From positions 1 through 64,000 of the forward strand of contig NZ_RZGZ01000005.1 in assembly GCF_003990045.1 (NCBI RefSeq): 64,000 nt of DNA. The letters are read 5' to 3'. The stretch is from Labedella endophytica (GTDB lineage Bacteria > Actinomycetota > Actinomycetes > Actinomycetales > Microbacteriaceae). Both the position numbers and the translations under genes were made by a program. The notes beneath the pieces are model-generated. The model did not search any database. It was not told the DNA's origin and saw only the letters and a program-made list of their open reading frames with translations. Shown here piece by piece: positions 24,706 through 53,956 of the stretch (its first letter is position 1; the number at the start of each line of letters is the position of its first letter).

Positions 24706-24808
24706 CTCCGAGCCTGTGCGATCTCCGAGCCTGTGCGATCTCCGAGCCTGTGCGATCTCCGAGCCTGTGCGATCTCCGAGCCTGTGCCGATCTCCGAGCC
24801 TGTGCAAC
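24706..24808. repeat. Six-copy 17-bp tandem repeat after tRNA-Gly
   Basis: The unit CTCCGAGCCTGTGCGAT occurs four times exactly (24706-24773), a fifth time with one extra C (24774-24791), and a sixth time with its last bases changed (24792-24808). It begins 55 bp past the tRNA end. There are no spacers between copies, so it is not a CRISPR. The rest of 24652-24880 shows no gene that I can support. Confidence 0.95.
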
Positions 24809-49054: not shown

Positions 49055-49675
49055 ATGACCACTGGTAGCGACCTCCTCGTCTGGATCGACTGCGAAATGA
49101 CGGGACTCGACCTCGCGGTCGACGAGCTCGTCGAGATCGCCGTCGTCATCACCGACTTCGACCTCAAGCCCGTCGACGAGGGGCTCAGCGTCGTGATCAA
49201 GCCGAGCGAGGCCGCGCTCGCCAACATGGGCGAGTTCGTCACGACGATGCACACCACCTCTGGACTCATCGACGAGATCCCCGACGGCCTCGAGCTCGCG
49301 GACGCCGAGTTCCGCGTCCTGCAGTACGTCATCGAGCACATCCCCGAAGCGCAGAAGGCCCCGCTCGCGGGAAACTCGATCGGCACCGATCGGGCGTTCC
49401 TCGCCAAGTTCATGCCGCGACTCGACGGCCACCTGCACTACCGCAACGTCGACGTCTCGTCCGTGAAGGAACTCGCCCGCCGCTGGTACCCGCGGGCCTA
49501 CTTCAACGCGCCGTCGAAGGACGGAGGGCACCGTGCCCTCGCCGACATCCTCGAGTCCATCCGTGAACTGGCGTACTACCGTTCGGTCGTGTTCGTGCCG
49601 CTGCCAGGCCCCACGTCCGACGACGCCAAAGCGGCCGCAGCGGCCACCGTGCACGCATACACCTCGAACGTGTAA
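49055..49675 (+). CDS. orn: Oligoribonuclease
   Basis: DEDDh 3'-5' exonuclease that degrades the last 2-5 nt RNAs and linear di-nucleotides such as pGpG. The 206-residue protein has the metal residues in WIDCEMTGLD (Asp, Glu), NSIGTDRAFL (Asp), and HRALADILES (His and Asp), and the substrate-fit segment YRNVDVSSVKEL. The C-terminal ~25 residues are an Ala-rich tail beyond the usual ~180. tRNA-His follows, an order seen in many Actinobacteria. Confidence 0.96.
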   Translation: MTTGSDLLVWIDCEMTGLDLAVDELVEIAVVITDFDLKPVDEGLSVVIKPSEAALANMGEFVTTMHTTSGLIDEIPDGLELADAEFRVLQYVIEHIPEAQKAPLAGNSIGTDRAFLAKFMPRLDGHLHYRNVDVSSVKELARRWYPRAYFNAPSKDGGHRALADILESIRELAYYRSVVFVPLPGPTSDDAKAAAAATVHAYTSNV

Positions 49676-50003: not shown

Positions 50004-51623
50004 ATGACCGTCGGACACGTTCAGGGTGATGCCCTCACCGGTCACCTCCTGGGTGGCCGCTATCGCCTCGACGGCCTCATCGGCCGGGGCGGCATGGCGA
50101 ACGTGTACCGCGCTACGGACGAGGTCCTCGACCGCGGCGTCGCCGTGAAGCTGTTCGGAGAGGCCTCCGACGGCGACAAGCACGCCTCCCGGGCGGCGAT
50201 GGAGGTGCGACTCCTCGCAGCGCTCAACCACCCGTCGCTCGTCACCCTCTACGACGCGCGGGTCGTAGCGGACCAGGACGCGTTCCTCGTGATGGAGCTC
50301 GTCGACGGTCCGACGTTGCGCGATCGGATCGCCGGTGGTCCGATCGGCCGGGTGGACGTCGCCGCGATGGCCGGTGACCTCGCCGAGGCGCTGCACGCCG
50401 TGCATGAGGCCGGAATGGTGCACCGCGACGTCAAGCCCTCGAACGTGCTTCTGGCACCGTCCATCTCCCCGACCCGAGAATTCCGGGCGAAACTCGCCGA
50501 CTTCGGGATCGCCCACCTGGTGGACTCCGCACGGCTGACGACTCCGGGCACAATCATGGGCACCGCGGCGTACCTCAGCCCCGAGCAGACCCGTGGCGTG
50601 GCGCCGGCGCCCGCCGGCGATGTCTACTCCCTCGGTCTCGTGCTCCTCGAGAGCTTCACCCGCGAGCGCGCCTTCCCCGGAAACATGGCGGAGTCGCTCG
50701 TCGCTCGGGTCCAGCGCGACCCCACGATCCCCGGAGACATCGGATACGCGTGGAAGTCGCTGCTCACTGCGATGACCTCGCGGACGCCGGAGGATCGTCC
50801 GACCGCGCTCGAGGTGGCGGCGTCCGCTCGCGGGATCCTCAGCACGGAGGGCACCGGGCCGATCGTGTCCGACGCGACAGCCGCTCTCCCGACGACCGGT
50901 GCGGGGGTCCAGGCGGTCACGCTCGACCCGACGTCGGCCATGGAATCGACCGCCGCCGCTCCCGTCGACTCGATCACGCAGAGAATCGTTCTCGCCGACG
51001 ACTCCAATTCCGTCGAACCCCCGCTCGCGGCGAATCGACGGACCCGCAGAGCCGTCGGACGCACCGCATCGTCCCGGCCGCGCAGGTCCCGTCGTGTGGT
51101 CGGCGCGATCGCCATCGCTGCCGTCACCCTCGCGCTCGGTGCCGGGTTGACCTCGTGGGTCGTCGCCGACCGTTCCGCGACGTCGACAGCCACGGACGGC
51201 CTCACACTCGGAGTACTCCTGACCTCGATCGACACCGTCTCCTCCGGGGTCTCGACCCTCGTGTCCGATCGGCAGACCTCGGCGACCCCGGACGCCGTCC
51301 CCGCCACGGACACCGATCCCGACACGGACGGGACGGACACGGGAACCGACACCACGTCGCCGTCCGAGACCGACGGTACCGAACCGGCTCCGTCCGCTCC
51401 GACACCGACGTCCCCGGACGACACAGCCCCCGACGACACGGTTCCGGACGAGACGACGCCCGACGAGACGACGCCACCGGAGGATACGCCGTCGGAGATC
51501 CCGGATCCCGAACCCTTCGCCCCCGGCAACCCCGGCAACGGAAACTCCGGCAATGGAAACGGGAACCCGGGCAACGGCAACGGCAACGGACCGGGGAACA
51601 ACTCGGGCAAGGGCAACGGCTGA
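50004..51623 (+). CDS. Transmembrane Ser/Thr protein kinase with Gly/Asn-rich outer tail
   Basis: Eukaryotic-type protein kinase, 539 residues. The cytoplasmic kinase domain (~19-280) has the glycine loop GRGGMA, Lys49 in AVKLF, HRDVKPSN with catalytic Asp142, and DFG at 166-168, so it should be active. One membrane helix lies at ~365-387 (VVGAIAIAAVTLALG). The outside part is first Thr/Asp/Pro-rich, then a run of Gly/Asn/Pro repeats to the C-terminus; PASTA domains, usual in cell-wall-sensing PknB, are absent. The ATG has a GAGGAGG site. Target proteins are unknown; the next gene is a small zinc protease. Confidence 0.92.
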   Translation: MTVGHVQGDALTGHLLGGRYRLDGLIGRGGMANVYRATDEVLDRGVAVKLFGEASDGDKHASRAAMEVRLLAALNHPSLVTLYDARVVADQDAFLVMELVDGPTLRDRIAGGPIGRVDVAAMAGDLAEALHAVHEAGMVHRDVKPSNVLLAPSISPTREFRAKLADFGIAHLVDSARLTTPGTIMGTAAYLSPEQTRGVAPAPAGDVYSLGLVLLESFTRERAFPGNMAESLVARVQRDPTIPGDIGYAWKSLLTAMTSRTPEDRPTALEVAASARGILSTEGTGPIVSDATAALPTTGAGVQAVTLDPTSAMESTAAAPVDSITQRIVLADDSNSVEPPLAANRRTRRAVGRTASSRPRRSRRVVGAIAIAAVTLALGAGLTSWVVADRSATSTATDGLTLGVLLTSIDTVSSGVSTLVSDRQTSATPDAVPATDTDPDTDGTDTGTDTTSPSETDGTEPAPSAPTPTSPDDTAPDDTVPDETTPDETTPPEDTPSEIPDPEPFAPGNPGNGNSGNGNGNPGNGNGNGPGNNSGKGNG

Positions 51624-51652: not shown

Positions 51653-51658
51653 TACGAT
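51653..51658 (+). promoter_or_regulatory. Candidate -10 for the zinc protease gene
   Basis: TACGAT followed by 8 nt and the GTG at 51667. Confidence 0.45.
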
Positions 51659-51666
51659 GGGGCCTC

Positions 51667-52017
51667 GTGATCGACATGACCCCTGACGACTTCGAGGCCC
51701 TCGTCGAGGAGGTCTTCGACACCCTGCCGGACGACATGGTGGACGATCTCGACAACGTCGCGATCATCGTCGAGGACAGGCCGGAGGACGGCTCCCTCGA
51801 TCTCCTCGGCCTCTACCACGGGGTCGCTCTCACCGAACGCGGCCAGTACGGTTTCGGCGAGCTCCCGGACACGATCAGCCTCTACCGCGAGCCTCTCCTG
51901 CACCACGTGGACGACGAGCAGGCTCTCCGCGCCGAGGTGCGCGTCACCCTCGTGCACGAGATCGGGCACTACTTCGGCCTCGACGACGCCGAATTGCACC
52001 GACTCGGGTGGGGCTGA
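51667..52017 (+). CDS. Minimal zinc metallopeptidase (HExxHxxGxxD)
   Basis: A 116-residue zincin-like protein. The C-terminal motif HEIGHYFGLDDAEL gives His, Glu, His and the third ligand Asp, and the N-terminal DFEALVEEVFDTLPDDM and VAIIVEDRP segments fit the compact 'minimal MMP-like' family found across Actinobacteria. No signal peptide, so cytoplasmic; the substrate is unknown. GTG at 51667 is favoured by the nearby -10; an ATG at 51676 is possible. Confidence 0.88.
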   Translation: MIDMTPDDFEALVEEVFDTLPDDMVDDLDNVAIIVEDRPEDGSLDLLGLYHGVALTERGQYGFGELPDTISLYREPLLHHVDDEQALRAEVRVTLVHEIGHYFGLDDAELHRLGWG

Positions 52018-52052: not shown

Positions 52053-52085
52053 ATGTCGGCAGAACGGGTCCCCTCATGGGTGTAG
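52053..52085 (+). other. Possible leader mini-ORF (MSAERVPSWV)
   Basis: A ten-codon frame at exact leaderless distance from TAGCCT. It ends 7 nt inside the next gene (start 52076), which is in another frame and has no ribosome site. Ribosomes may enter here and restart at 52076. Confidence 0.4.
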
Positions 52086-53305
52086 GGCGGGTCATCGGGG
52101 TCGCGACCGGCACTCTCGTGATCCTCGCCGTCGGACTCTACGGTCCCGCGACGCTTCTCGGCCCCCTGCCGGAGACGACGGTCAGCGACATCGCGCCTCC
52201 CGCGGTCCAGGGATCGGCGCCCGTCCTGCCGTCGGACGGTGCGAGCGCGCTCACGGAGGACGTGGAGGGGACGCCCCTCGCGGTCGCGGGTGACACGGAG
52301 CCGGTTCCGATGGCGGCGGCCACGAAGGTCATCGCCGCCCTCGTCGTCCTCGACGAACACCCGCTCGCGGCCTCGGACGAAGGCGAGGTCGTCCCGATCA
52401 CCTCAGCCGATTTCCTGTCATACCGCGACTACCAGGCAGCCGGCGCCCGCACCGTCACGGTCTACACCGACGACCAGTGGACCGAGCGGGGCATGCTGCA
52501 GGCGCTCCTCCTCGGCTCGAGCAACAACCACGCGGACACCCTCGTCCGGTGGGCCTTCGGTTCCGTCGACGAGTACCTCGTCGCGGCTCGAGCCTGGCTC
52601 GCCGAGAACGGACTCGACGACATCACCCTCGCGGACGCGACCGGCCTCTCGGAGGAGAGCGCCGGCACCGCCGCGGATCTCTCGGTCGTCGCGGCTCTCG
52701 CCCTGCAGGATCCGGCGATCGACTCGATCCTCACGAGCGAGGTCGACGGTCTCCCGTCCCGCCGCGGGATCGAGAACACCACGACATATCTGCCCGAGCT
52801 CGGGATCACCGGCGTCTCACGCAGCTACACCGACGCGGCCGGGATCTGTCTGTTGTTCCGCGTCTCCGTCGAAGTCGGCGACGAGACCTACCATGCGTAC
52901 GGTGCGATCCTGCGGCAGGCGGACTGGGACAGTCTCGAGGCCTCCGTCCGCGCGCTCGTCGAGCAGGCACGGACCGCCGTCGTGGACGAGCCGCTCGTCG
53001 ACGTCGGCACTCCCCTGGTGTCGATCAAGACCCCGTGGGGAGAGACCGTCACCGCCTCCGCCGGATCCTCCGTGTCGGCTCCCCACTGGTCGCTGGGCAC
53101 CCCGCTGGTGCGGACCACGGTCGAACCCGTCGAGGCATCGGGCCCAGGAACGGTCGTCGGTTCCGTCGAGGTGACGGCGGGGGGCCGCACGGAGACCGCG
53201 CCCCTGAAGCTCGACGCCCGGCTGCAGGATCCCGGCGTGTTGTGGCGCCTGACGAACCCCGTGCCGATCATCTCGGCGCTCGTCGCCGACCTCACGACCG
53301 ACTGA
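52076..53305 (+). CDS. D-Ala-D-Ala carboxypeptidase-like protein with missing active-site serine
   Basis: A 409-residue protein of the penicillin-binding/S11 peptidase fold with an N-terminal membrane anchor (VIGVATGTLVILAVGLY), so the body is outside. The SxxK motif aligns to PMAAATKV: the Lys84 is kept but Ser is Ala81. The SxN motif is present (SSN, 148-150), and the KTG motif region reads GVSRSYT and is lost. It is therefore probably not a peptidase; it could bind peptidoglycan or regulate another protein. The C-terminal ~130 residues are beta-rich. The ATG lacks a ribosome site and overlaps the mini-ORF at 52053. Confidence 0.8.
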   Translation: MGVGRVIGVATGTLVILAVGLYGPATLLGPLPETTVSDIAPPAVQGSAPVLPSDGASALTEDVEGTPLAVAGDTEPVPMAAATKVIAALVVLDEHPLAASDEGEVVPITSADFLSYRDYQAAGARTVTVYTDDQWTERGMLQALLLGSSNNHADTLVRWAFGSVDEYLVAARAWLAENGLDDITLADATGLSEESAGTAADLSVVAALALQDPAIDSILTSEVDGLPSRRGIENTTTYLPELGITGVSRSYTDAAGICLLFRVSVEVGDETYHAYGAILRQADWDSLEASVRALVEQARTAVVDEPLVDVGTPLVSIKTPWGETVTASAGSSVSAPHWSLGTPLVRTTVEPVEASGPGTVVGSVEVTAGGRTETAPLKLDARLQDPGVLWRLTNPVPIISALVADLTTD

Positions 53306-53338: not shown

Positions 53339-53956
53339 TCAGCGCCGATCACCGAGCGGTCGGGACAGCGTCTCATCGAGCCAGCGGGTCGCCTGCAGGT
53401 CATCGTTGCGCAGGACGACGTCGGCGACAGCGATCGGGCCCTCGCGGTCGATGAAGGCCTCCATCTGATCGGTCCACATGTCCCAGTGGGCATCGAAGGC
53501 GCCGGCATCCCGCTCGAGCGCGCGCGTCTTGCGCACGTCGCCTGCGGCCTCCAGCCAGATCCGGAGGTTCGCCGCCGCCGCGTTCGACCTCGACAATGCA
53601 CCGCATCCCTCGAGCACGAGCGGACGGCCGGCAGGGACGTCGTGCCACTCGGCCGGTCCTCCTGTGCGCCAGTCGTGTCGGCGCCACCGGCCAGCCCGTC
53701 CGGCCCGCCTGGGTCCGAGGAGCTCGGCCCCCACGTGCCGCGTCGCCGCGTCGAGCCCGCTCCATCCGGGATACACGTCGTCCATCCGCACGAGGACGGG
53801 TTCGACGGACCCCGGCCACGACGCCACGAGGGCATCGGCGAAGGTCGACTTGCCGGCGCCGCTGCGCCCGTCGATGAGAACGACCGCGTCCGGACGGGAG
53901 AGCGCCTCCGCCACGCTGCCGAAGGGGACGAGCGGCCCGGCGGACGACCCGCTCAC
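53339..53956 (-). CDS. P-loop kinase-like protein at the end of the YkoEDC operon
   Basis: A 205-residue nucleotide-binding protein resembling uridine kinase/AAA-type small kinases: Walker A GRSGAGKST at residues ~30-38, an acidic residue in VRMDDVYPGW as in nucleoside kinases, and LVLEGCGAL as Walker B-like strand. The GTG start is 1 nt after the stop of the ECF transmembrane gene, so it belongs to the same operon. A role in phosphorylating an imported thiamine precursor is a possible reading of the context, but the sequence does not show it. Confidence 0.75.
   Translation of the reverse strand: MSGSSAGPLVPFGSVAEALSRPDAVVLIDGRSGAGKSTFADALVASWPGSVEPVLVRMDDVYPGWSGLDAATRHVGAELLGPRRAGRAGRWRRHDWRTGGPAEWHDVPAGRPLVLEGCGALSRSNAAAANLRIWLEAAGDVRKTRALERDAGAFDAHWDMWTDQMEAFIDREGPIAVADVVLRNDDLQATRWLDETLSRPLGDRR

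Follow-up and report, generated by a model that had tools for sequence, protein, structure and literature searches.

Peptidase family S11 includes PBP5 and PBP6, the K15 DD-transpeptidase of Streptomyces, and Rv2911 of M. tuberculosis. PBP5 is tied to the membrane by its C-terminus. The motif set of active S11 D,D-carboxypeptidases consists of SxxK, SxN, and KTG, as given in one report (PMC4281109). The same report describes inhibitors of Rv2911 and Rv3330 bound to the Ser of SxxK with contacts from both other motifs, and an oxyanion hole formed by the Ser together with the Tyr of KTGY; its authors infer a bond between SGN and the stem-peptide DAP residue (PMC4281109). Proteins with the penicillin-binding fold tend to be named carboxypeptidases from a family match alone.

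Inactive LytM/M23 factors (EnvC, and also Csd1/Csd2) are the model of a dead wall enzyme that regulates live ones. These factors are non-catalytic homologues of wall peptidases kept by selection. The protein described here resembles them in that respect but has an unrelated fold and chemistry, and its partner is presumptive. A search of open-licence papers found, among the matches listed, no report on this protein or on any S11 pseudoenzyme.

The gene lies in a 64,000-nucleotide window of Labedella endophytica DNA, the window being the whole stretch that was analysed. Its protein belongs to what is here called class A, the S11 homologues without KTG; relatives with KTG form class B. Class A shares with family S11 its sequence family, overall fold (Z ~22), SxN, and the Lys of SxxK, but 81 of its 98 members lack the Ser nucleophile, and KTG is missing throughout the clade. 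Unlike PBP5, it appears to be tied to the membrane by its N-terminus. Class B, the KTG-bearing S11 paralogues of Microbacteriaceae, has a similar length and N-terminal anchor, but it sits at a different locus and keeps Ser81 and KTG in all 54 sequences read.

Gene layout, motifs, and predicted fold

Table 1. Features of the class A gene and its neighbours, in window positions.
Feature	Coordinates	Strand	Basis or remark
Whole gene, class A S11 pseudoenzyme (probable), 409 aa	52076..53305	+	ORF; start backed by near relatives, which carry [MV]GV[GA]R there too
N-terminal membrane anchor, ~residues 7-27 (conserved ...ILAVGLYGPATLLGPLP)	52094..52156	+	Putative; topology read from sequence
Peptidase_S11 domain match, residues 68-262	52277..52861	+	Pfam
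Former SxxK, A81-A-T-K84: Lys retained, nucleophile gone	52316..52327	+	Sequence, relatives
SxN place, S148-S149-N150-N151	52517..52528	+	Sequence, relatives
Former KTG, S248-R249-S250	52817..52825	+	Sequence, relatives
C-terminal beta domain, ~residues 302-387	52979..53236	+	Aligns to its C-terminal counterpart in PBP5-type enzymes; two-domain rows rmsd ~5-10 Å
Oligoribonuclease-like exonuclease gene (PF00929), recurring farther upstream	49055..49675	+	Pfam
Ser/Thr kinase, transmembrane stretch (read from sequence), Gly/Asn-rich tail	50004..51623	+	Matched here only in the window's genus
Zincin-like metallopeptidase gene (PF06262), recurrent upstream neighbour	51655..52017	+	Start not settled; ORF list from 51553
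Uridine-kinase-like P-loop gene, convergent neighbour	53339..53956	-	Weak Pfam match, below cut-off

The window protein matches Pfam PF00768 (Peptidase_S11) at 2.2e-12 with 47.4 bits, above the curated cut-off of 27.6. In the anchor region, G20, Y22, P24, P30, and L31 are nearly invariant in the alignment and P32 is invariant; the structure model places a helix at residues 7-21, where pLDDT is below 50. Two proteins of genus g8 (L074:7262-8827, 522 aa, and L076:7271-8779, 503 aa) carry long low-complexity inserts rich in Ala, Thr, Gly, and Pro, one between the anchor and the domain and one after the S-L-S strand.

When the protein is aligned with solved DD-peptidases, M-A-A81-A-T-K84 falls at the SxxK stretch, S148-S-N150 at SxN, and S248-R-S250 at KTG. 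Of the motif set of active enzymes, the window protein therefore has SxN and lacks both the SxxK Ser and KTG. The first-pass annotation had read the same picture from the letters of the DNA: Ser replaced by Ala81 with Lys84 kept, KTG lost, and SxN and the fold signatures remaining. All of these claims hold, as do its reading frame, forward-strand coordinates, and residue numbering. Chance or sequencing error was rejected as the cause of the motif loss, as the three other genomes of the genus also carry Ala81 and SRS.

The AlphaFold2 model has a mean pLDDT of 64.9 and a pTM of 0.58. Its best Foldseek match is PBP6 (3ita, E 3e-15), and VIA Z scores run from 19.8 to 22.8 over the 50 DD-peptidase entries shown, with 22.8 to both 4k91 and 5tr7. 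Against most single-domain targets the rmsd is ~2.7-3.9 Å over 225-239 residues (8.7 Å for 4ppr), and against targets spanning both domains it is ~5-10 Å. The predicted DD-peptidase fold is secure. The pocket geometry is not settled by this model because it was built on 3 sequences, has a low mean confidence, and falls below a pLDDT of 50 at residues 250-254.

A KTG-less clade within Microbacteriaceae

A protein search found relatives in 204 of 249 family genomes. A class A profile of 34 rows, run on 398 family genomes at E 1e-110, matched 111, and one matching gene from each was fetched and read. Class A is present in 97 of the 398 genomes and 21 of 85 genera, a lower bound because this threshold would miss more divergent members; the other 14 genomes owed their match to a high-scoring class B gene alone. 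An order-wide search added one more genome (G615), which brings the totals to 98 class A sequences, all from Microbacteriaceae, and 54 of class B, of which 49 belong to the family and 5 do not. Class B proteins are ~33-40% identical to the window protein and are the closest paralogues found. These counts leave out repeat fetches of one gene, L032 (whose last 250 residues are identical to L009), and a second-frame piece in L160. In L160 (G651:C1:996400-998200) the class A gene lies in two frames, which marks either a broken gene or an assembly error.

The order-wide profile search covered 396 genomes. Beyond the family it picked up 14 matches, spread over 8 genomes, at E up to 1e-25; the strongest was 1.4e-57. 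Five of these 14 were read (L103-L107), and all have KTG. A single-protein pattern scan of genome_contigs, which reaches close relatives only, found two loci among 71 matches, both in Microbacteriaceae: L033 and L032, the latter from Mycetocola miduiensis and sharing 56% identity with the window protein. No viral copy was found among 17 pattern matches in viral_contigs.

Because the KTG place was the criterion for sorting the sequences, finding no KTG in 98 of 98 class A members follows by construction, and the independent evidence comes from trees built without the motif columns (residues 81-83 and 247-252). In a tree of 93 rows (52 class A, 41 class B), one branch separates the classes with support of 100/100 and is found in 100% of 200 bootstrap trees. 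A quick tree of 152 rows (98 class A, 54 class B) likewise separates them by one branch with an SH-aLRT of 100. Some rows have long branches (L069, L100, and L108). Class A would be a clade if the root lies among the outside-family rows, which fall on the class B side.

Residue 81 is Gly in 65, Ser in 17, and Ala in 16 of the 98 class A members. It ranks 121st in conservation of 344 class A columns and is invariant in class B. The tree requires at least five changes at this residue in 52 class A rows and at least eight in 98. Of the 11 Ser-bearing class A rows in the smaller set, 2 use AGC and 9 use TCN, and the tree does not tell loss of Ser81 from regain. Because 17 members retain Ser, its loss is not a fixed feature of class A; the shared feature is the loss of KTG.

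Much of the rest of the pocket is nearly constant. Among the 98 class A members, W135 and S149 are found in all, H152 in 95, K84 and N150 in 94 each, and S148 in 91. The former KTG place reads S 87, T 6, Y 4, and V 1 at residue 248, R 86 and L 12 at 249, and S 93 and G 5 at 250. In class B, S81, K84, S148, and K-T-G are each present in 54 of 54 sequences, and S148 by itself would therefore not mean activity. Eight sites are at least 85% fixed in class A and at most 10% in class B: 16, 125, 135, 149, 152, 248, 249, and 250. Five of the eight fall in 15 motif positions (p 1.7e-6, with KTG columns that define the class included), and two of five fall in 12 motif positions once those columns are omitted (p 0.008); for both values, the motif stretches were picked after the sites had been seen.

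This pocket is not universal in class A, because genus g18 (L069:6645-7874, L162, L163, and L164) has lost K84 and SRS. In all four of its genomes, each of which was read, K84 is Arg, SRS is YRG, and SxN is altered.

Six pairs within the window's genus give dN of 0.118-0.222 and dS of 0.797-0.971, or dN/dS of ~0.13-0.26, which shows purifying selection on the gene in this genus. Across the 98 class A genomes, 30 of 344 columns are at least 93% identical.

Neighbouring genes and the active paralogue

Gene order was surveyed at 36 class A loci (37 minus the class B locus L079), hand-picked at one to a few per genus and thus non-random. In 29 of them a zincin match precedes the class A gene and shares its strand, with the match ends at most 100 bases apart in 21; this count covers class A loci only, and the 7 loci without a match include a 4-kb contig. 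The exonuclease, presumably an oligoribonuclease, also recurs upstream, and uridine-kinase-like and ECF-transporter genes recur downstream.

The kinase behaves differently. The first-pass annotation had linked the protein to it by position, and it does lie two genes upstream in the window, with a homologue in the three other genomes of the genus. The link fails beyond that point: tblastn (E up to 1e-8) gave a match to the window kinase at 3 of 36 loci, each of them in the window's genus, and at none of the other 33. Among the 36 loci, it is only in this genus that the kinase sits between the exonuclease and zincin genes. A Pfam search at E up to 1 also gave no PASTA match for the kinase, which scores 228 bits against the NCBIfam PASTA-kinase model, below the cut-off of 450. 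The locus thus differs from a wall sensor system of the PASTA-kinase type. By gene order, the kinase is a local neighbour and not one conserved across the clade. Elsewhere in the window, a 17-base unit is repeated 5.8 times at 24706-24805 with 97% matches, near tRNA-Pro and tRNA-Gly genes.

The class B locus lies between SpoU methylase and GDSL lipase matches in six of six cases read (L180-L185, with the Pfam names taken from L180 only), with an extra gene inserted in some. The four genomes of the window's genus each have a single PF00768 match, at the class A place. In a second genus, the same profile gives one match in each of five genomes (by count only), and the protein search also gave a single place there, class A. 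Class A is the only S11 protein left in these two genera. In all eight readable genomes of the nine in both genera, a gap of 16-69 bases separates the SpoU match from the GDSL match, so class B is deleted in those eight. Class A survives this deletion and therefore needs no class B partner.

In the window's own genome, SpoU and GDSL each sit at the end of a contig; the two ends have copies of an 80-base repeat in common, and the gap between them is unreadable. Absence of class B there is probable from three of three congeners and five of five genomes of the second genus. Copies of the repeat lie at C10:4-247 of G000 (3.0 copies by TRF on C10) and at the start of contig C2 (L187 and L189). In congeners, this position holds the short SpoU-GDSL junction that remains after class B deletion.

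Proposed function and rival readings

Read from the sequences, class A combines clade-wide loss of KTG, a labile nucleophile place, near-fixity in much of the remaining pocket, purifying selection within the genus, and survival past its active paralogue. Because class A keeps SxN and has lost KTG and, in most members, the Ser, the simplest reading would be a peptide-binding edge retained without catalysis, with a presumptive ligand. The protein is probably a membrane-anchored pseudoenzyme, a paralogue of an active S11 D,D-carboxypeptidase that has lost its chemistry and is kept for a binding role. The chemistry may have been lost early in the history of part of Microbacteriaceae, after which the protein would have been retained for binding.

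The S11 domain presumably lies outside the membrane. Its surviving SxN side, together with a new edge (S149, H152, S-R-S 248-250, W135, and R125), would bind either a partner protein or a stem peptide of the wall, and no acyl-enzyme would form. Through such binding it may place or regulate the active enzymes of the wall, in the manner of inactive LytM factors. Two S13-type carboxypeptidases in the window's genome have motifs that, read by eye, are intact (STMK/SDN/KSG and STFK/SDN/KTG) and can do the cutting; the genome also has three transpeptidase-domain matches. A non-catalytic sensor or scaffold had been suggested for this gene from its letters. The non-catalytic, anchored S11 homologue in that proposal is borne out by the motif loss across the clade, purifying selection, and the altered yet conserved pocket, and a sensor or scaffold role would go a step beyond these observations.

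Several other readings compete with that of a binding pseudoenzyme. The Ser81 of 17 members is a point against it, as these could keep weak acylation. Class A could then be a weak but real D,D-peptidase with active Ser-bearing members and local losses in those with Ala or Gly, and the failure of the tree to separate loss from regain would allow this. However, the Ser-bearing members fall in the same KTG-less clade and the window's genus has Ala81 in four of four genomes, which makes the reading rather improbable. A re-tooled enzyme, in which S148, S149, S248, or S250 works with Lys84 in a new wall reaction, would fit the retention of all five residues alongside a drifting old nucleophile, and it is unlikely for two reasons: S148 is present in all 54 KTG-bearing relatives too and is hence no new nucleophile, and there is no precedent among the literature matches listed.

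A wall sensor that reads the wall for the adjacent Ser/Thr kinase draws on the position of the kinase and its homologues in the genus. Such coupling is rejected on synteny as the function of the whole clade, and it would be at most an addition in one genus; as a reading of the protein it is more doubtful still. A decaying paralogue without function would explain the lost catalytic residues, the further erosion in genus g18, and the two-frame gene in G651, but it is hardly credible. Amino acid change is held far below silent change within the genus, which excludes decay there, conservation excludes it for the clade, and class A is kept while class B is deleted.

A more specific form of the binding pseudoenzyme can be put forward tentatively. 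The wall of Microbacteriaceae has a B-type cross-link and is not known to be of the DAP type. Class A might be a dedicated non-cutting receptor for these unusual wall peptides, in which the SxN side holds the stem peptide and the nucleophile and KTG have been traded for a nearly fixed edge (S149, H152, S-R-S, and W135). By occupying or presenting peptides, it might set where the S13 carboxypeptidases and transpeptidases work. Because class A is found in 97 of 398 genomes and 21 of 85 genera, its role is not essential to the Microbacteriaceae wall.

By their motifs, the proteins of this clade, spread over 21 genera, cannot be carboxypeptidases; the clade is under selection in the genus examined and persists where its active paralogue is gone. 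Should the binding role prove right, a dead penicillin-binding protein would be a wall-assembly factor in these bacteria.
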